From: Actinobacteria bacterium HGW-Actinobacteria-6
Lineage (GTDB): Bacteria; Actinomycetota; Coriobacteriia; Anaerosomatales; Anaerosomataceae
Direction: 5' to 3'
NCBI GenBank assembly: GCA_002841295.1
Contig: PHEU01000024.1
Location: 1 to 43,335 of the forward strand
DNA length: 43,335 nt
Shown here: in pieces, positions 21,201-38,484 of the stretch
Numbering within the stretch: position 1 is the first letter of the stretch
How the letters are laid out: each line of letters begins with the position of its first letter
Program-made: the position numbers and the translations under genes
The notes under the pieces: model-generated
Databases searched by the model: none
What the model saw: only the letters and a program-made list of their open reading frames with translations
What the model was told of the DNA's origin: nothing

Positions 21201-21455
21201 ATGGCCCATAAAAAAGGTCTCGGCTCCACGAAGAACGGCCGCGATTCCAAGTCAAAGCGACTTGGCGTCAAGCGGTTTGCTGGCCAGACGGTAACGTCGG
21301 GCTCGATCCTCGTGCGCCAGCGCGGTACGCGCCTGAAGCCCGGCGTCAACGTCGGTATCGGTCGTGACGACACGCTGTTTGCCAAGATGGACGGCGTTGT
21401 CGAGTTCTCGCACGGCAAAGATCGTCGGGTTCACATCCGACCGCTCGTAGGCTAA
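21201..21455 (+). CDS. rpmA: 50S ribosomal protein L27
   Basis: L27 is an 84-residue protein near the peptidyl-transferase centre. The N-terminus [16 protein letters not shown] is the mature form reaching the tRNA ends. There is no Firmicutes-type cleavable N-terminal extension, so no Prp protease is needed. The remaining sequence ([32 protein letters not shown]) is typical and full length. The binding site GAAGGGG lies about ten bases ahead of the ATG. The gene is followed by a terminator-like hairpin before obg. Confidence 0.96.
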
Positions 21456-24045
<2,590 letters not shown>

Positions 24046-29132: not shown

Positions 29133-29208
29133 GGGGCCATAGCTCAGCTGGGAGAGCGCATGGCTGGCAGCCATGAGGTCAGGGGTTCGATCCCCCTTGG
29201 CTCCACCA
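29133..29208 (+). tRNA. tRNA-Ala (anticodon GGC)
   Basis: The 76-base cloverleaf has acceptor GGGGCCA pairing with TGGCTCC (one G-T), D-arm GCTCAGCTGGGAGAGC and anticodon stem CATGG/CCATG. The loop CTGGCAG gives anticodon GGC, which reads GCC and GCU. The T-arm is AGGGGTTCGATCCCCC with normal pairing, and the 3' CCA is encoded. It has its own promoter and a hairpin terminator. Confidence 0.97.
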
Positions 29209-29219
29209 ATAGAATTGAT

Positions 29220-29248
29220 CAGAAGAGCGGACCATGTCCGCTCTTCTG
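29220..29248 (+). terminator. Terminator of tRNA-Ala
   Basis: A perfect 13-bp stem, CAGAAGAGCGGAC with GTCCGCTCTTCTG and loop CAT, lies 12 bases after the tRNA, followed by CTATTCGTTC (a weakly T-rich tail). Confidence 0.8.
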
Positions 29249-29325: not shown

Positions 29326-32300
29326 ATGCGCCTCGGCTTTGCGACCTCGCGTAAGGGCGATCTTGACCCGGTGCTCCAATGGAGACGGCTGTTCGCCGGT
29401 GTCCTGATGTGCGCGGTCGCGCTCATTATCGCGAACCCGATGGCTGCGTTGGCTGCGAATCCCCACGGAACGTACTCCTCCTCGAGTAAGTCGTGTCAGT
29501 TGTGTCATGACTTGCACTCTGCAGCTGGCGATACAATCATCGTTTCGCCCTCCGAGAAGCTGCTGTGTTACAGCTGCCATGACGGTACCGGGAGCAGTTT
29601 TAACACGAGGGCCGCGTTTGCAGAGTCTATTCTGGGCACGACTACGGCAAAGAGCTCGCATCCGGTCCCTTCCGGCGCGATGCAATGCGCAAGTTGCCAC
29701 ACGCCGCACGAAGGTCCCTCTGAGGACAACATCAGATCTCTCGGTTTTGGCTCGGCGGACGCGACGAGCGGTGTTGCTGTGTGCGGCGGCTGCCATGGCA
29801 GCGGAAGCACGCTCCCCGGAGGGAACCTTGCGGTCCCGATAGCGGGAACACCTCACGCTTCGATTGCGTCCTCGGCCAGCGCGGCAGGAATCGCTTGCGT
29901 TGCCTGTCACGAGCCGCACGCGTCTTCTAATGCTGATCTGGTGCGCGCCACGCTGCGCACTGAATCGCAGACGACCGTGACAGTTTCGGGCGAACCGGGA
30001 CTGTGTTTGGGTTGTCATCAGGATGCAGGTGGCGCGTACAACGGCGGAACGCTCGCTGGCATGCAGAAGCACTCAACTGTCACGTCTTCCACCAAGGCCC
30101 TCACGTCATGGCCGGGAGCGTCGGGTTCTGCTGCGGGATGTGATGGGTGTCATGAGCCCCATGGGACTGGTAGCGGACCGTCATACACGCGAGTAGCGGA
30201 CAAGGCTCTGTGCAGTACCTGTCACGATGCTGCATCACTTGTGTATCCCGCTGGCTACTCGTATCGCGGAGCCGCTGCGTTCGCCTCGTCAGGTCACACT
30301 GGAATCAGCTCTACGGGCATCAACTATGTCTCGGTTCTCGCGGAGCCACCCGGATTCTCTGCATGGGAGAGCACGAGCCCTCCAACGCCGAGTTCGCCTG
30401 GTGTTCCCGTCTCTGCCGCGCGGGCATCTGCGCTTCTGACTTCAGACGGAGTCAGACTGACAACGGATCTTCAGCAGACGGACGGTGACTGGGACTACCA
30501 GACGTATCGGTTCAAGGTGCCTATCCCGAAGTCCGAAGCCGGTGCAGTCCGACTCCACTGGGAGGGTTACGGTGAGGAGGCCGCAGGGTTCCCGGTCGTG
30601 CTCTCCGTCTGGAACATTAGCTCCGGCGCGTGGGACATGATTCGTAGCGCGCAAATGCCCACGCAGACGACCGTGAGCCTTCCGCTTTCCATTGCCAACC
30701 ACGTTGCTTCTGACGGAACGGTGTACCTCATGGCGAAGGCACGGTATTCGCGTGATGCAGCGCTGATCTCCGGCCCGACGATCACGGCGCTCAGTGGCAC
30801 GAGTGCGAAGGTTGAGTGGGTAACGTCGGGACTGACCAGCACCTACGTTGACTACGGGACGACCTCGTCGTACACGAAGACTGCGGGATCTGCCACGCGA
30901 GTACAGAATCACGTGGTGACCATCTATGGTCTATCACCAGGTGTTTGGCACTTCCGTGTTCGCTCAGTTGCGTTTGATGGCACCTCGTACACCTCGGGGG
31001 ATATCGTTCAGGGCATCCCACGCCCGACGACCACCGCCGTGCCTAATGTCGTATGGACCGGCGTCGACGCTACCCGCACCCTCAATTGGGCAGCCCCCGC
31101 AGGTGCTCCTGGCGGACCATTCCAGTTCCGTACCTTCCTGAACAAAGACGGCGTACCGTTCTCTTCGACGGATTGGTCCACCGCCACTTCTCGAACTGTC
31201 TCAGTCGGTCTCGGTGCGTATTCATGGCGCGTTCAGGCCCGCGATGCCGGTGGGAACTCATACGACTATTCGCCGTGGAGCTGGTTCTACGTCTACGAGT
31301 ACACGGGCTCGTGTCCGTTCCTCTTCACGTGGGACGGCGAGAAATTCGACTATGAAGCCGATCTTTACACCACCGGGAAGCTCGCCAGCCAGCGAGCGAG
31401 CGGCACGTACCAGAAGCCGAACCCGCACGACTACTACGTTCTCGACAACACACCGGTCGAGAAGGACGGCGCTTTAGAACTGCGGCTCGTAGAAGAGCGG
31501 TTCGAGACCGACTACCTTGACGAGTTCACGCTCTATGCGGTTGACGTGCCCGTTGGCAGGACCGTCGTAGCTGAGAAGATCCCGCAGGGCGGGGTGTATC
31601 AGCCACTCGAAGATGTGATTCATACAGTCAGCTCCACGATGAGCCAGCCGGTGTCGGCGACCCGCGTCAAGACCGGCGAGGACGTGCGTGATGCCATCGC
31701 CGAGAACGACGCGGTCTTCGCCGTGCTCTCGCCGGATGTCGAGAAGCCGGGGTACGAATCGATCGAGCTCGATCTTGGCGACCTTTCCGACGCCCCTGCC
31801 GTGAAGCTGGTATTCGAGGGCATGAGCCGGTTCCCGGAGACGGCGGCCGGCAAACTGCTCGGCTCCGCAGGTGTTCGGCAGAAGGTTGAAGTCGTGGACG
31901 CCGGCGGGAACTGGGTCGCGCTTCCTGGTGATTGGCCGAAGCCGGCTGAGTTTGCCCGCCCGTACATGCTCGATCTGACGGGGCGCTTCCCGACGGACGA
32001 CTATCGGGTTCGACTGACGTTCCTGCTCAAGACGTACGTTGACTCGATCAAGCTCGATACCACGGCGGACGAGCCCCTCAAGGTCACCGAGGTGAAGCGC
32101 TCCTCGGCCGAGTTGCGTCGTCACGGCGTGGACCCGATGTCTCCGGACAGCGCCATTTACGAGTATGTCTACGGTGAACCGAACGATGTGTCTGGGTATC
32201 TCCCCGGCAACTACACCCGTTTTGGCGAAGTCGGCCCACTACTTGATGCCTCCGATGACAAGTTCGTCATCTATGGTTGTGGTGATGAGATGGCGCTGCG

Positions 32301-32904
32301 ATACGAGCGTCCGGCACCCGCCTCGGCAGGCATGACACATACGTATGTCGTGTACGCGAACGGCTACTACAAGGATCTGAACACCGACATCGCAAGCGCG
32401 GTCGAGCCACTCCCGTTCTCGGCCATGAGCAACTACCCATACACCGCTTCCGAGAAGTATCCGGATGACGCGGATCACGTCGCGTATCAGGCTGAATGGA
32501 ACACTCGCCATTACGGTCCGGAGGAGGCTTCAGAGACAGCAATCGAGACAGCAGCTGCTGCTCCAGCGAGTGCGTGGTCGTGGCTGACCACGACTGTGGC
32601 ACGCGCCTGGGACGCGGTCCTCTCGTTTGTGGCTCCGAGGACTGGTGAGGACTTTATGGCGACCGCAATCACGGACGAGGTACTGCATCGTTCGCTCAAT
32701 ACAGATGTGGTGGCTCTAGAGGTCACCGGTGTCGAGCCGGTTTCGACCAACGCCTGTAGCGCGTGCCATGCGCCGCATGGCGGTGCCGACTCGGGGAAGC
32801 TGCTGACCGGCGGTCGCGGGGCAGCAGATGGGCGTACGTGTACGGCCGACGGAACCGGCGGCTGCCACGATAGCGCTGCGAACTCGGCATGGCGACTGCC
32901 ATAA
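29326..32904 (+). CDS. Exported multihaem c-type cytochrome with FN3 modules, N-terminal part of a frame-disrupted gene
   Basis: The 1192-residue product has a signal peptide (basic start, hydrophobic 22-38, likely cleavage after ALA near residue 43). Eight CxxCH haem sites follow at residues 57, 81, 121, 153, 191, 227, 272 and 296 (doubled-CXXCH type, several as CxxCHxPH). Next come a WES-type beta module, two fibronectin III-like domains and a long TWDG module (SCPFLFTWDG onward). A ninth CxxCH (CSACHAPHG) sits near residue 1146. GGAGG is nine bases before the ATG. The frame stops at 32902-32904 in mid-domain, while the next frame continues the same protein type. Inserting TG at 32890 would join the two and create CGDCH. 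It is probably an extracellular or wall-exposed electron carrier. Partner proteins are not encoded nearby. Confidence 0.85.
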   Translation: MRLGFATSRKGDLDPVLQWRRLFAGVLMCAVALIIANPMAALAANPHGTYSSSSKSCQLCHDLHSAAGDTIIVSPSEKLLCYSCHDGTGSSFNTRAAFAESILGTTTAKSSHPVPSGAMQCASCHTPHEGPSEDNIRSLGFGSADATSGVAVCGGCHGSGSTLPGGNLAVPIAGTPHASIASSASAAGIACVACHEPHASSNADLVRATLRTESQTTVTVSGEPGLCLGCHQDAGGAYNGGTLAGMQKHSTVTSSTKALTSWPGASGSAAGCDGCHEPHGTGSGPSYTRVADKALCSTCHDAASLVYPAGYSYRGAAAFASSGHTGISSTGINYVSVLAEPPGFSAWESTSPPTPSSPGVPVSAARASALLTSDGVRLTTDLQQTDGDWDYQTYRFKVPIPKSEAGAVRLHWEGYGEEAAGFPVVLSVWNISSGAWDMIRSAQMPTQTTVSLPLSIANHVASDGTVYLMAKARYSRDAALISGPTITALSGTSAKVEWVTSGLTSTYVDYGTTSSYTKTAGSATRVQNHVVTIYGLSPGVWHFRVRSVAFDGTSYTSGDIVQGIPRPTTTAVPNVVWTGVDATRTLNWAAPAGAPGGPFQFRTFLNKDGVPFSSTDWSTATSRTVSVGLGAYSWRVQARDAGGNSYDYSPWSWFYVYEYTGSCPFLFTWDGEKFDYEADLYTTGKLASQRASGTYQKPNPHDYYVLDNTPVEKDGALELRLVEERFETDYLDEFTLYAVDVPVGRTVVAEKIPQGGVYQPLEDVIHTVSSTMSQPVSATRVKTGEDVRDAIAENDAVFAVLSPDVEKPGYESIELDLGDLSDAPAVKLVFEGMSRFPETAAGKLLGSAGVRQKVEVVDAGGNWVALPGDWPKPAEFARPYMLDLTGRFPTDDYRVRLTFLLKTYVDSIKLDTTADEPLKVTEVKRSSAELRRHGVDPMSPDSAIYEYVYGEPNDVSGYLPGNYTRFGEVGPLLDASDDKFVIYGCGDEMALRYERPAPASAGMTHTYVVYANGYYKDLNTDIASAVEPLPFSAMSNYPYTASEKYPDDADHVAYQAEWNTRHYGPEEASETAIETAAAAPASAWSWLTTTVARAWDAVLSFVAPRTGEDFMATAITDEVLHRSLNTDVVALEVTGVEPVSTNACSACHAPHGGADSGKLLTGGRGAADGRTCTADGTGGCHDSAANSAWRLP
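31309..32520 (+). repeat. TWDG beta module, copy 1
   Basis: This coding repeat of about 400 residues begins SCPFLFTWDG and ends EKYPDDADHVAYQAEWNTR. It shares its beginning, the TRFGEVGPLLDASDDKFV core, the PLPFSAMSNYPY segment and its end with copy 2 at 33632-34852. The copies have diverged, so the duplication is old. It is part of the cytochrome gene. Confidence 0.75.
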
Positions 32905-35854
32905 CCCGCATTCGAACAACGTGGAGGTGCGCTTCTCGGATCCGGATGATCCGTCGAAGACGATCGGGTCGCCGCTCGGCACGGTCCTGGACGAGTCAGA
33001 CAAGCTGAACGTTCTCGTCGGAGCGAAGCACGACGCGATCGGGCCGATAATCTCGAACATTGCCATTACCGCGTCAGCTTCGACGCTAGCGTCGCCGACT
33101 GTATCGTGGACTACGAATGAGAATGCCACCTCGTGGATCGACTGGGGTCTCACGACGGCCTACGAACTCGGAAACGAGTCGCTTCCGACGCCGTTTGGAA
33201 ACAACACGCTTGCTACGGCTCATTCGATCCAGATGTCAGGTCTGGCCTTGGGGACCACGTACCACTATCGCATCCGTACCACTGACGCACTTGGGAACTC
33301 GACGTACTCGGCAGACAGGACGTACAAGCCGACAACGCCACCTCCGACGCCGCTCATGTCGGATGTAACGACGCAGACGGGGCCGGACGGCTGGGGCCCG
33401 ATTCCCGTGGAGCTCACGTGCAGCGTTGTAGCAAGCAGCGACGGGCATGCGGTGATCTACGAGTTCCAGTTGGGCACGGGGACTGTTCTTACGTCGAACA
33501 CACCTTCCTATATTGTGAATCTCTCCGACGGCACGTACACCGTCCACGTGAGGGCGCGTGACGCAGTCGATACGGCAGCCGTATCTGCGTGGTCCGCGTA
33601 CGACACGTTCGTGGTGAACAATGCGGATCCCTCGTGTCCGACGCTGTACACCTGGGACGGGACGACGTACCGGTTCGTGACCGACGTGATGGGCCTTGGC
33701 TCCGTCGGCGTCAAGAAGGGGCCGAGCGCGTATCTGGTTCCCGAGCCTGTTGAAGACAGTGTGATTCCGCAGGGTGCGCTCATCCCTCGGGACGGGAAGC
33801 TCGATATTCGCCTGACTGACGAGAAGGCCGAAGTCGAGTTCGTCGACGAGGTCTCGCTGCGGGCCGTCGACCATCCGGCCGGCACGCGGCTCCTTACGAA
33901 CGACCTCCACTGGGGTGCTTTTGACGGCGGGAGAGAGCCGACTGAGTACTTCACGATCAGCGATCCCAAGCCGGTGGCGGCTACCTACGAGCGAATCCCG
34001 GTCCTGGGAACGGAGGCGGTTCCTGAGACGGACGTGTCGCCCGAACTCGCTGTTGAGGGTGATGGCGAGGTGGCCTACAGCGGCTTGTACGACGACAACA
34101 TTTGGACCTTCGACCTCGGCAAGCTCGGCGATCCTGCGCAGATCAAGCTTGTGCTCTCGGGGTGGGTCGACTACGCGAATCGCGCCGAGAAGACGGCGTG
34201 GCTGGAGAGCGGAAAGCGCCCGCCCGCGAGCTTCATGGAGGTCCAGGACGCCAACGGCGAGTGGATCGCCGTGGGGGACGCGCCACATCCGCCCGGCTAT
34301 CCGAAGACGGTTGTGTACGACTTGTCTGACGTTTTTCCCGATGGCGTCACCGACTACAAGGTGCGCATGCGCATCTACATGCGCATGAATGTGGACTACG
34401 TGGGTGTCGATACGACTCCTGATGCGGCCGTCAAGGTGACCGAGTTGCTGCCTGTCTCGGCAGAGCTCTCCTACAAGGGACTCTCGCAGTACAGTGGCGC
34501 GCCGTATCCGACGTTCACCTATGACGACATCTCGCCGGTGGAGCCCCGCCTGCAGACGGGCGCATTCACGCGATACGGCGACGTCCTCCCACTCTTGAAG
34601 GCCGCTGATGACATGTTCGTCGTGATGAACACCGGCGATGACCTCGGTTTGACCTTCGACGAGCCTGCGGCACCTGCGGCGGGCACGGTGCGGTCGTACA
34701 TGATCCACACGGATGGCTTCCACCAGACGATTTCGGGAAGCGTGGACCCGATGCCGTTCCACGGAATGTCGAACTACCCGTACCCATCCGAGGAGCATTA
34801 CCCGGATGATGCGGAGCACTCGGCATACCTGGCAGAGTGGAACACCCGGGTTGTGAATCCGGTGCCTGCGCCAGAGATCAAGCTGAGCGGGTTCAAAGAG
34901 ATGCACGTCACCGGCATGATCGTCGCCAGTACTGGCACATACTCGCTGGTTAGCGACCAACTGCTGCTTACGGTCACTCGTGCCGACGGCTCGGTCATCA
35001 CACGCTCTCCCGTCAGCGGCTGGGAGAGCGCGTCCTCCGAGACCGCGAAGCCGACGCCGACTGCGCCGGGTGTCGAGGTTGGTGCCGCCGAGATCGCCGC
35101 GCTGGTGGCGGACGACGGCTCCGGATGGACCACCAGCATGGCCGTTGCCGACGGCATCTGGGACTGGCAGCTCATGCAATTCGACCTGTCTGACATTCCA
35201 GTCGGAGATATCAAGAGCGTGAATGTGTTGTGGAACGGCCACGGTGGACCGAATGCGGGGTACGACACCGCCGTGTACACATGGAACCCTGTGTCGCCGG
35301 GATGGACGTCCATCACCAAACGCATGATGATCGCCGACACGAGTGTGGCCGCAAGTACCAGCTCGCTAGATCCGGCGTTCTGCCTTCGCTGCCACGACGG
35401 CCTAGCGCCGAGCGGCGTGGTGATTCCCCCTGGTCTCGTGAACATCGGCGCACGCTGGAATCTGAGCACTGGGGACTTCCATGGAGCCAGGGCGGGGAGC
35501 GGCGTCGGCACTACCGGTCTGAAGGCCCCGTACGCTCGTGGTCAGGGACCCATCGGTTGTCCCACATGCCACGACACGCACGGCACGGGAAGCCTCTATC
35601 ACATACCGGCGAAGGTCAACGGGCAGACTGTGGCGACTGTGGCAGCTGGGAGTGACTACGACAACTTGTGCAGCGCGTGTCACGTGGGCAACGCGGGGAA
35701 CTGGCATCCCGATGCGGGCTGCTGGTGTCACATCAGCGGTGACTCCGAGCATGGGCTCGTGAGCGTGCCGCTCAACAACGAAATGGATTGTTCGATGTGC
35801 CACTTCGGTCACAAGAGCGAGTTCGTTCATAACTGCAACGACGGATGCCACTAG
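32828..35854 (+). CDS. C-terminal part of the multihaem FN3 cytochrome, separated by a frameshift
   Basis: This open frame of up to 1008 residues lacks a ribosome binding site, signal peptide and proper N-terminus, so it is unlikely to be a gene of its own. In-frame family sequence starts at about 32893 (GDCHNPHSNN). It contains two FN3-like domains, a second TWDG module (SCPTLYTWDG, 33632 onward) and a second WES module. The haem-binding C-terminus has canonical CLRCH, CPTCH, CSACH and CSMCH plus the unusual CWCH and a terminal CNDGCH. With two bases restored at 32890 the whole gene would encode 2176 residues and at least 14 CxxCH sites. Without restoration this part would not be exported or haem-loaded. 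Decay and sequencing error cannot be distinguished here. Confidence 0.75.
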   Translation: MGVRVRPTEPAAATIALRTRHGDCHNPHSNNVEVRFSDPDDPSKTIGSPLGTVLDESDKLNVLVGAKHDAIGPIISNIAITASASTLASPTVSWTTNENATSWIDWGLTTAYELGNESLPTPFGNNTLATAHSIQMSGLALGTTYHYRIRTTDALGNSTYSADRTYKPTTPPPTPLMSDVTTQTGPDGWGPIPVELTCSVVASSDGHAVIYEFQLGTGTVLTSNTPSYIVNLSDGTYTVHVRARDAVDTAAVSAWSAYDTFVVNNADPSCPTLYTWDGTTYRFVTDVMGLGSVGVKKGPSAYLVPEPVEDSVIPQGALIPRDGKLDIRLTDEKAEVEFVDEVSLRAVDHPAGTRLLTNDLHWGAFDGGREPTEYFTISDPKPVAATYERIPVLGTEAVPETDVSPELAVEGDGEVAYSGLYDDNIWTFDLGKLGDPAQIKLVLSGWVDYANRAEKTAWLESGKRPPASFMEVQDANGEWIAVGDAPHPPGYPKTVVYDLSDVFPDGVTDYKVRMRIYMRMNVDYVGVDTTPDAAVKVTELLPVSAELSYKGLSQYSGAPYPTFTYDDISPVEPRLQTGAFTRYGDVLPLLKAADDMFVVMNTGDDLGLTFDEPAAPAAGTVRSYMIHTDGFHQTISGSVDPMPFHGMSNYPYPSEEHYPDDAEHSAYLAEWNTRVVNPVPAPEIKLSGFKEMHVTGMIVASTGTYSLVSDQLLLTVTRADGSVITRSPVSGWESASSETAKPTPTAPGVEVGAAEIAALVADDGSGWTTSMAVADGIWDWQLMQFDLSDIPVGDIKSVNVLWNGHGGPNAGYDTAVYTWNPVSPGWTSITKRMMIADTSVAASTSSLDPAFCLRCHDGLAPSGVVIPPGLVNIGARWNLSTGDFHGARAGSGVGTTGLKAPYARGQGPIGCPTCHDTHGTGSLYHIPAKVNGQTVATVAAGSDYDNLCSACHVGNAGNWHPDAGCWCHISGDSEHGLVSVPLNNEMDCSMCHFGHKSEFVHNCNDGCH
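33632..34852 (+). repeat. TWDG beta module, copy 2
   Basis: The second copy runs from SCPTLYTWDG to EHYPDDAEHSAYLAEWNTR. Matching landmarks with copy 1 are the opening SCP-L-TWDG, TRYGDVLPLLKAADDMFV, the PMPFHGMSNYPY segment and the closing AEWNTR. Order and spacing are the same. Confidence 0.75.
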
Positions 35855-35943: not shown

Positions 35944-38484
35944 GTGCCCCGCAGCTACGACCCGCACGCGATCGAAGAGAAGTGGCAAGCCGATTGGGAA
36001 GCGACCGGGATCTACTCGGTCACGGAAGACGTCGACAAGCCCAAGAAATACGTGCTTGAGATGTTTCCGTACCCCTCTGGCGACATCCACATGGGGCACG
36101 TCCGCAACTACTCCATCGGCGACGTCGTAGCCCGCTACTTCACCATGCGCGGCATGAGTGTGCTGCATCCGATCGGTTGGGACGCTTTCGGCCTGCCTGC
36201 CGAGAATGCAGCGATCAAGAGCAACTCGCATCCCGGCAAGTGGACGTATGCAAACATCGAGAAGCAAGCCGCGAGCTTCAAGCGGATGGGCTTCAGCTAC
36301 GACTGGGACCGAACCGTGAAGACGTGCGATCCCGACTACTACCGCTGGGGCCAGTGGAGCTTCCTTAAGTTCTGGGAGCGCGGCTTGGTCGAACGCAAGA
36401 GCTCGCCGGTCAACTGGTGCCCCTCGTGCAAGACCGTGCTCGCAAACGAGCAGGTGCTCGGCGACGGAACGTGCTGGCGCTGCAAGAGCGTCGTCACGAA
36501 GCGCGAACTGGAGCAGTGGTTCCTGAAGATCACCGACTACGCTCAGGAACTCCTCGACGACCTCGACGAGCTTCCCGGCTGGCCTGATCGCGTGAAGGCC
36601 ATGCAGGCGAACTGGATCGGTCGCAGTGAAGGTGCCGAGGTGGACTTCGCGTTGTGCGACGAGTCCGGCGAGCCGTGCGATGAGACGATCACGGTGTTCA
36701 CCACTCGTCCCGACACGCTCTTCGGTTGCAGCTTCTTCCTGCTCGCACCGGAGCATCCCTTGGTGAAGCAGTTCGTCGTCGGCACGCAATATGAGGCCGC
36801 CGTGATGGATGTCGTGAAATCCGCCGAGATGGAATCCGCGATCGACCGTTCCTCGGCTGACAAAGAGCGAGCCGGCGCATTCACCGGCCGCTACGTGGTG
36901 AATCCGGTCAATGGCGAGAAGGTGCCGGTCTGGGTGAGCGACTACGTGCTCATGGAGTACGGCACCGGTGCGGTCATGGCCGTCCCGAGCGGCGACCAGC
37001 GCGACTTCGACTTCGCACGCAAGTATGACCTGCCGATTCCGCCGGTGGTCGTGGCCGAGGACGACGAGCTCTTCGGACAGCTTTCGGGTGTGCGTGAGCG
37101 CGTGTTGGCTGACGTCCCGTGGGATATCGCGTTCGCGGGCGACGGCGTCATGGTGCAGTCGGGCGAGTTCACCGGCATGCGCGGCGGCAAGGCGAGCGAG
37201 GGCATGAAGGCAGTCACCGAGTGGCTTGCCGAGCGCGGCCAGGGTCGCTTCAACATCAACTTCCGACTGCGCGACTGGCTCATCAGCCGACAGCGCTACT
37301 GGGGCAACCCGATTCCGGCTGTCCATTGCCCGGCGTGCGGCCTCGTGCCTGTGCCCGAGGATCAGCTCCCCGTGATGCTTCCGATGGACGTTGACGTCAC
37401 CAAGGGCGAGACCCTTGCAGATCACCCCGAGTTCTATGAGACCACGTGCCCCACGTGCGGCGGTGCTGCTCGGCGAGAGACCGACACGATGGACACGTTC
37501 ACGTGTTCCAGCTGGTATTACCTGCGCTACTGCGACGCCCGCAATGACGACGCCATTTGGGATCCGACCAAGACGGATTACTGGATGCCCGTCGACCAGT
37601 ACATCGGCGGCATCGAGCATGCGATCCTGCACCTGCTCTACTCGCGCTTCTTCACGAAGGTCTACCGCGATATGGGCCTTGTGAGCTTTGCCGAGCCGTT
37701 CACCAACCTACTCACGCAGGGCATGGTGAAGCTCGACGGCGCCACGATGAGCAAGTCGCGCGGCAATGTCGTCGCACCCGAGGAGATCATCGCCAAGTAC
37801 GGCGCGGACACACTGCGCGCGTATATCTTGTTCATGGCGCCGCCGGACAAGGACCTCGAGTGGAACAACGACGGCCTCGACGGCATGTGGCGCTTCCTCG
37901 GCAGGGCGTGGCGCTACATCGCTGAGGTGGCCGAGGAGGCCGCAGCCGGTGTATCTGGCGCGGCCGCCGCGGGCGATTCCGCTAGCAAGTCGCTGCGCAG
38001 TGAGCGTCACCGCGTGGTCGGCAAGGTGTCCGACGATATCGAGCGCTTCCAGTTCAACACCGCGCTCTCCGCGATGATGGAACTCGTCAACGCCGCCTAC
38101 GACTATCGCCGGGCGATGCCCGCTGGTACGCGCGACGTGGTGCTTGAGCGCGATGTCGCCGAGACGCTCACGCTTCTGCTTTCGCCGTACGTGCCGCATA
38201 TGGCCGAGGAGTTGTGGCGCGAGATTCTTGGCCACGAGACTTCCGTACACCTTGAGTCGTGGCCCGCGTGGGATCCCTCGGCGGCTGTCTCCGATGAGAT
38301 CGAGTATGCGGTTCAGGTGAACGGGAAAGTGCGCGCTCACCTCACTGTTGCTGCCGATGCGCCGACGGATGACGTCCAGGCCGCGGCGCTTGCGCTTGAG
38401 AAGGTCGTGGAGCATACGACCGGCAAGACGGTTCGTAAGGTAGTGGTCGTGCCTGGCAAGCTCATCAGCATCGTCGTCGGCTAG
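35944..38484 (+). CDS. leuS: Leucyl-tRNA synthetase
   Basis: The 846-residue class I synthetase charges tRNA-Leu. It has HMGH as HIGH signature (residues 49-52, in PYPSGDIHMGHVRNY), an editing domain (about 220-420, with TTRPDTLFG) and TMSKS as KMSKS (601-605). The anticodon-binding and C-terminal domains end VVVPGKLISIVVG. The length is normal for bacterial LeuS. The GTG start has CCGGAGG about seven bases upstream. The leader is too short for a T-box. The next gene begins nine bases downstream. Confidence 0.97.
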   Translation: MPRSYDPHAIEEKWQADWEATGIYSVTEDVDKPKKYVLEMFPYPSGDIHMGHVRNYSIGDVVARYFTMRGMSVLHPIGWDAFGLPAENAAIKSNSHPGKWTYANIEKQAASFKRMGFSYDWDRTVKTCDPDYYRWGQWSFLKFWERGLVERKSSPVNWCPSCKTVLANEQVLGDGTCWRCKSVVTKRELEQWFLKITDYAQELLDDLDELPGWPDRVKAMQANWIGRSEGAEVDFALCDESGEPCDETITVFTTRPDTLFGCSFFLLAPEHPLVKQFVVGTQYEAAVMDVVKSAEMESAIDRSSADKERAGAFTGRYVVNPVNGEKVPVWVSDYVLMEYGTGAVMAVPSGDQRDFDFARKYDLPIPPVVVAEDDELFGQLSGVRERVLADVPWDIAFAGDGVMVQSGEFTGMRGGKASEGMKAVTEWLAERGQGRFNINFRLRDWLISRQRYWGNPIPAVHCPACGLVPVPEDQLPVMLPMDVDVTKGETLADHPEFYETTCPTCGGAARRETDTMDTFTCSSWYYLRYCDARNDDAIWDPTKTDYWMPVDQYIGGIEHAILHLLYSRFFTKVYRDMGLVSFAEPFTNLLTQGMVKLDGATMSKSRGNVVAPEEIIAKYGADTLRAYILFMAPPDKDLEWNNDGLDGMWRFLGRAWRYIAEVAEEAAAGVSGAAAAGDSASKSLRSERHRVVGKVSDDIERFQFNTALSAMMELVNAAYDYRRAMPAGTRDVVLERDVAETLTLLLSPYVPHMAEELWREILGHETSVHLESWPAWDPSAAVSDEIEYAVQVNGKVRAHLTVAADAPTDDVQAAALALEKVVEHTTGKTVRKVVVVPGKLISIVVG

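Follow-up and report, generated by a model that had tools for sequence, protein, structure and literature searches.

How does a giant cytochrome gene that is read in one frame by its relatives come to lie in two frames in Actinobacteria bacterium HGW-Actinobacteria-6? The window, i.e. the whole stretch of 43,335 nucleotides analysed here, is one contig (PHEU01000024.1, C66 in our numbering) of a draft genome of 2.35 Mb in 69 contigs, whose source organism groups with Anaerosomatales and other Coriobacteriia-type Actinobacteria, judging by the names of its relatives. On the forward strand, an upstream frame (29326-32904, 1192 aa) and an overlapping downstream frame (32828-35854, 1008 aa) belong to the same multihaem protein, with the switch between them at about 32889. 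The first-pass annotation took them for a single gene interrupted by the loss of two bases (TG), whether through recent pseudogenisation, phase variation or an assembly or sequencing error, and counted 6531 bases and 2176 residues for the joined gene (6529 + 2). The arithmetic is correct and the joined gene stands, as relatives read through without a stop, in a single open frame at the same place; the proposed two-base lesion does not.

The cytochrome gene and its two frames

Profile searches assign the broken gene to the doubled-CxxCH multihaem c-type cytochromes, with scores for the upstream half of 90.5 bits against Pfam PF09699 (Paired_CXXCH_1, cut-off 20.6) and 77.2 bits against TIGR01905 (cut-off 25.2). 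Together, the two halves contain 13 CxxCH motifs and one atypical, longer-spaced C...CH. The upstream part comprises an N-terminal haem cluster with 8 CxxCH (29494-30225), followed by beta-sandwich module 1 and the start of a middle haem cluster (CSACH at 32755; CTADGTGGCH ending at 32868), and is 76% identical over residues 15/20-1188 to its counterparts in two genomes of the same genus, G003 and G004. Its last six codons (32887-32904) read gca tgg cga ctg cca taa, as first reported, and end in four out-of-frame residues (WRLP) and the stop codon TAA at 32902-32904, so that of the three haem clusters this frame covers the first in full and the second in part. The downstream part (32891-35854) aligns to relatives without further break and encodes, in order, GDCHNPH (the remnant of a CxxCH), fn3-like domains, beta module 2 and a C-terminal haem cluster (CLRCH at 35381, CPTCH at 35558, CSACH at 35669 and CSMCH at 35789). 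Between 32828 and 32890 the downstream frame is open by chance from an ATG at 32828 (MGVRVRPTEP...); this overlap is not a gene start, shows no signal peptide by eye and has no counterpart in relatives.

When 99 related genomes were searched with the sequence surrounding the break, orthologues came to light in genomes of the same genus, family and order, in each of which the frame is open through the break point. The frame transition is absent from all 14 relatives compared (Anaerosomatales-type Actinobacteria), and homologues that end at the same stop and are followed by a separate downstream gene occur in none of them. Relatives with a complete locus have a single open frame of 1845-2651 aa, and the open frames in the larger stretches fetched from relatives span 1553-2651 aa, the shortest ending at a contig end. 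The gene order EamA - cytochrome - leuS - comEA - comEC is found in three genomes of the same genus (G001, G003 and G004), in G015 and in G038, a relative at the level of the order; in the window, the intact neighbour leuS (35944-38484, forward strand) serves as synteny marker. This shared order and the single open frame in relatives identify the two window frames as one gene. The intact orthologues include those of 1MN72D_65_13 (RCMX01000001), HGW-Actinobacteria-1 (PHFB01000013), UBA2272, Coriobacteriia E9 bin 49 and Anaerosomatales Yes46-06, which have the domain layout and haem clusters of the window, share its gene order in the nearest cases and are 47-76% identical in the upstream half; unlike the window, they keep one frame throughout and possess 34-35 extra codons.

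The missing bases

In protein and DNA alignments, these 34-35 extra residues lie between CH...AANSA and GDCHNPH in 14 of 14 relatives. The stretch, which reads SGIDIRTAFTVGSDARARHDVMPADQRASGGKTAC in the nearest relative, is constant in length save for one codon in one relative, holds an invariant HDV and ends with the first cysteine of the CxxCH. In a predicted structure of a relative's intact junction region, the fn3-like part is confident and the haem part, with pLDDT below 50, was not used. Single deletions of all lengths between 0 and 124 bases were fitted in the two same-genus sequences to 110 bases around the junction. A loss of 104 bases is the unique best fit in both, with 21 mismatches per 110 for G003 (39 for the next-best length) and 17 for G004 (38 for the next-best), and places the deletion point within 32887-32892, the bases being lost at about 32889-32891. 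The deletion ends based on G003 (...GCAT / GGCGAC...) are identical to the window letters; they have at most a base or two in common and thus indicate no mechanism. A search for another copy of the missing stretch elsewhere in the genome found none, the next match being a distant paralogue on another contig (C35). By alignment, then, about 104 bases present in intact relatives are missing here, which cuts the gene in two.

The number 104 equals 3 x 34 + 2; because it is not divisible by three, the frame breaks, and adding two bases seems to restore it. Any two bases added at the right place do the same, which is what made the idea of a lost TG look convincing. Inserting TG was also said to recreate a haem site, ACGDCH, and the nearest relatives do read TACGDCHNPHSNN at this point, but the first cysteine and the invariant histidine of the HDV sit in the lost stretch, so that the insertion only mimics the motif. 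Nor does such a site count as independent evidence, given that CxxCHNPH arises from 11 of the 208 dinucleotide insertions tried near the break. A contraction of TGTG to TG by slippage, possibly phase-variable or following an earlier in-frame deletion, is very improbable: ahead of ggc gac/gat, both aligned same-genus relatives write gcg tgc instead of gca tgt, and a 2-base loss leaves 39 and 41 mismatches per 110, no better than other wrong lengths. The two-step form requires an extra event, and its in-frame loss of 102 bases (47 and 46 mismatches) is likewise no better than background. A phase-variable gene switched by slipped-strand mispairing was considered and rejected, as there is no simple repeat tract at the switch point, the listed repeats are short imperfect pairs, and slippage could not reverse a loss of 104 bases.

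Origin of the lesion

A programmed +1 frameshift, or a functional split gene of which both halves are made and used, would account for two long open frames that such a shift could join. This is the least probable explanation, for the shift is conserved in 0 of 14 relatives, no slippery sequence is recognised by eye, and the joined product would still be devoid of the first cysteine of the CxxCH. Maturation of c-type cytochromes attaches haem outside the membrane and requires an export signal, whereas the downstream frame of a split gene would start without any signal peptide visible by eye. A local assembly fault or minority-strain artefact, in which the sampled genome is intact and the assembler skipped about 104 bases, deserves more weight and is a real, if lesser, possibility. 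It agrees with the fragmented state of the draft genome and with a break that is the sole lesion in an otherwise conserved gene of 6.5 kb; moreover, spurious pseudogenes of technical origin are well documented (PMC11017572). Against it, the junction has no long repeat that an assembler might collapse, and other coding-frame breaks are absent from about 45 compared genes. This sample set 440 kb of the genome against 452 kb of G003, with a small overlap of about 51 kb aligned, and yielded 47 orthologues, 40 of them full length; the other 7 comprise genes cut where a fetched piece ends, cases of differing start sites, antisense frames and the broken cytochrome gene itself. No further true frame break was seen among these orthologues, nor in the window when compared with G003 and G004. 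Apparent breaks proved to be the rpmA-obgE spacer (near 21.5 kb), the tRNA-Ala gene upstream of the cytochrome start (near 29.2 kb) and, on contig C36, an open frame that matches no Pfam family and was judged to run antisense across two genes.

The preferred explanation, with a probability of roughly 60%, is that a single-copy giant cytochrome gene was recently inactivated, in this lineage or population, by a deletion of about 104 bases. Relatives with an intact orthologue at the corresponding locus, and a frame-breaking lesion (the 104-base loss and the TAA at 32902), are both what one expects of a pseudogene. The remainder of the gene is without a second lesion, both halves being otherwise open, and a pN/pS of 0.23 against G003 indicates purifying selection on the upstream half; the event, if real, is therefore recent. 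This lack of further decay suits an artefact equally well. Full-length giant cytochromes are missing from about half of the family's genomes, among them G002 of the same genus (86% complete), though the nearest carriers keep the locus in synteny. With many other paired-CxxCH proteins encoded elsewhere in the genome, such an absence makes loss of the gene plausible and probably tolerated. A contig scan for other genomes of the same species found none.

Under recent inactivation, about 104 consecutive bases would have disappeared from the middle haem cluster of a single-copy gene for a secreted multihaem c-type cytochrome of about 2200 residues, and with them the first cysteine of a CxxCH and a conserved histidine, possibly a haem ligand. 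Translation would continue out of frame for four codons before the stop, and the expected product would be a truncated protein of 1192 residues that keeps the N-terminal haem cluster but has neither beta-sandwich module 2 nor the C-terminal haem cluster. The deletion would be present in living cells and the protein inactivated by it. It is improbable that a real deletion has become fixed and that the shortened cytochrome still works as a cell-surface carrier without its second half; in such a case, the cytochrome would belong to a family in which module exchange and loss reshape the giant proteins. For annotation, each of the two predicted proteins represents half of a single gene, which lacks 34-35 codons and has not undergone a two-base slip. 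As a gene inactivation, the event would be an ordinary one. If real, it is a single instance of a giant surface cytochrome being lost from subsurface-type Actinobacteria, which keep such genes patchily, and one case leaves a wider question unanswered.

Flanking elements, module exchange and known systems

Upstream of the cytochrome gene, between it and EamA, a tRNA-Ala(GGC) gene (29133-29208, forward strand) is strongly conserved in G003 and G004, as is a 13-pair terminator-like hairpin just 3′ of it (29220-29248). Since the tRNA gene is common to these same-genus relatives, the 5′ end of the cytochrome gene is not frame-broken. A riboswitch was searched for 5′ of the cytochrome gene and none was found. 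Elsewhere in the window, the rpmA-obgE spacer (21430-21530) is strikingly conserved in same-genus relatives and contains the hairpin-like GGCCCTCCACCACTGGGTGGGGGGCC; it is without match in Rfam and is possibly a terminator or a leader RNA.

The beta modules have a history of their own. Module 2 of the window's gene (33500-34900; residues about 1400-1850) shares 72% identity with that of Coriobacteriaceae sp. EMTCatB1 and only 34-37% with the second module of G003 and G004, in which the second module is 76-78% identical to the first module of the same protein. These identities point to module replacement or gene conversion within the giant cytochromes. Relative to the deletion, the module switch is about 200 residues further downstream, and no link between the two is drawn.

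The intact protein likely carries electrons across the cell envelope. The two cultured members of these Actinobacteria possess 17-18 multihaem cytochromes, and Fe(III) is reduced by one of them (PMC9686372). OcwA, a known reductase, was not found in a sequence search of solved structures. The surface cytochromes of Thermincola, which take part in Gram-positive extracellular electron transfer, are distant, loci from Thermincola metagenome-assembled genomes matching the middle region of the window's protein at 32-37% identity. The strain EMTCatB1, from an electromethanogenic cathode, highly expresses multihaem cytochromes that have been linked to electron uptake (PMC7943316). Its giant cytochrome gene (BDLO01000001), which may or may not be one of those named in that study, shares beta module 2 with the window; unlike the window's gene, it has a shorter and different N-terminal half in a frame of 1845 aa, and its junction is intact.
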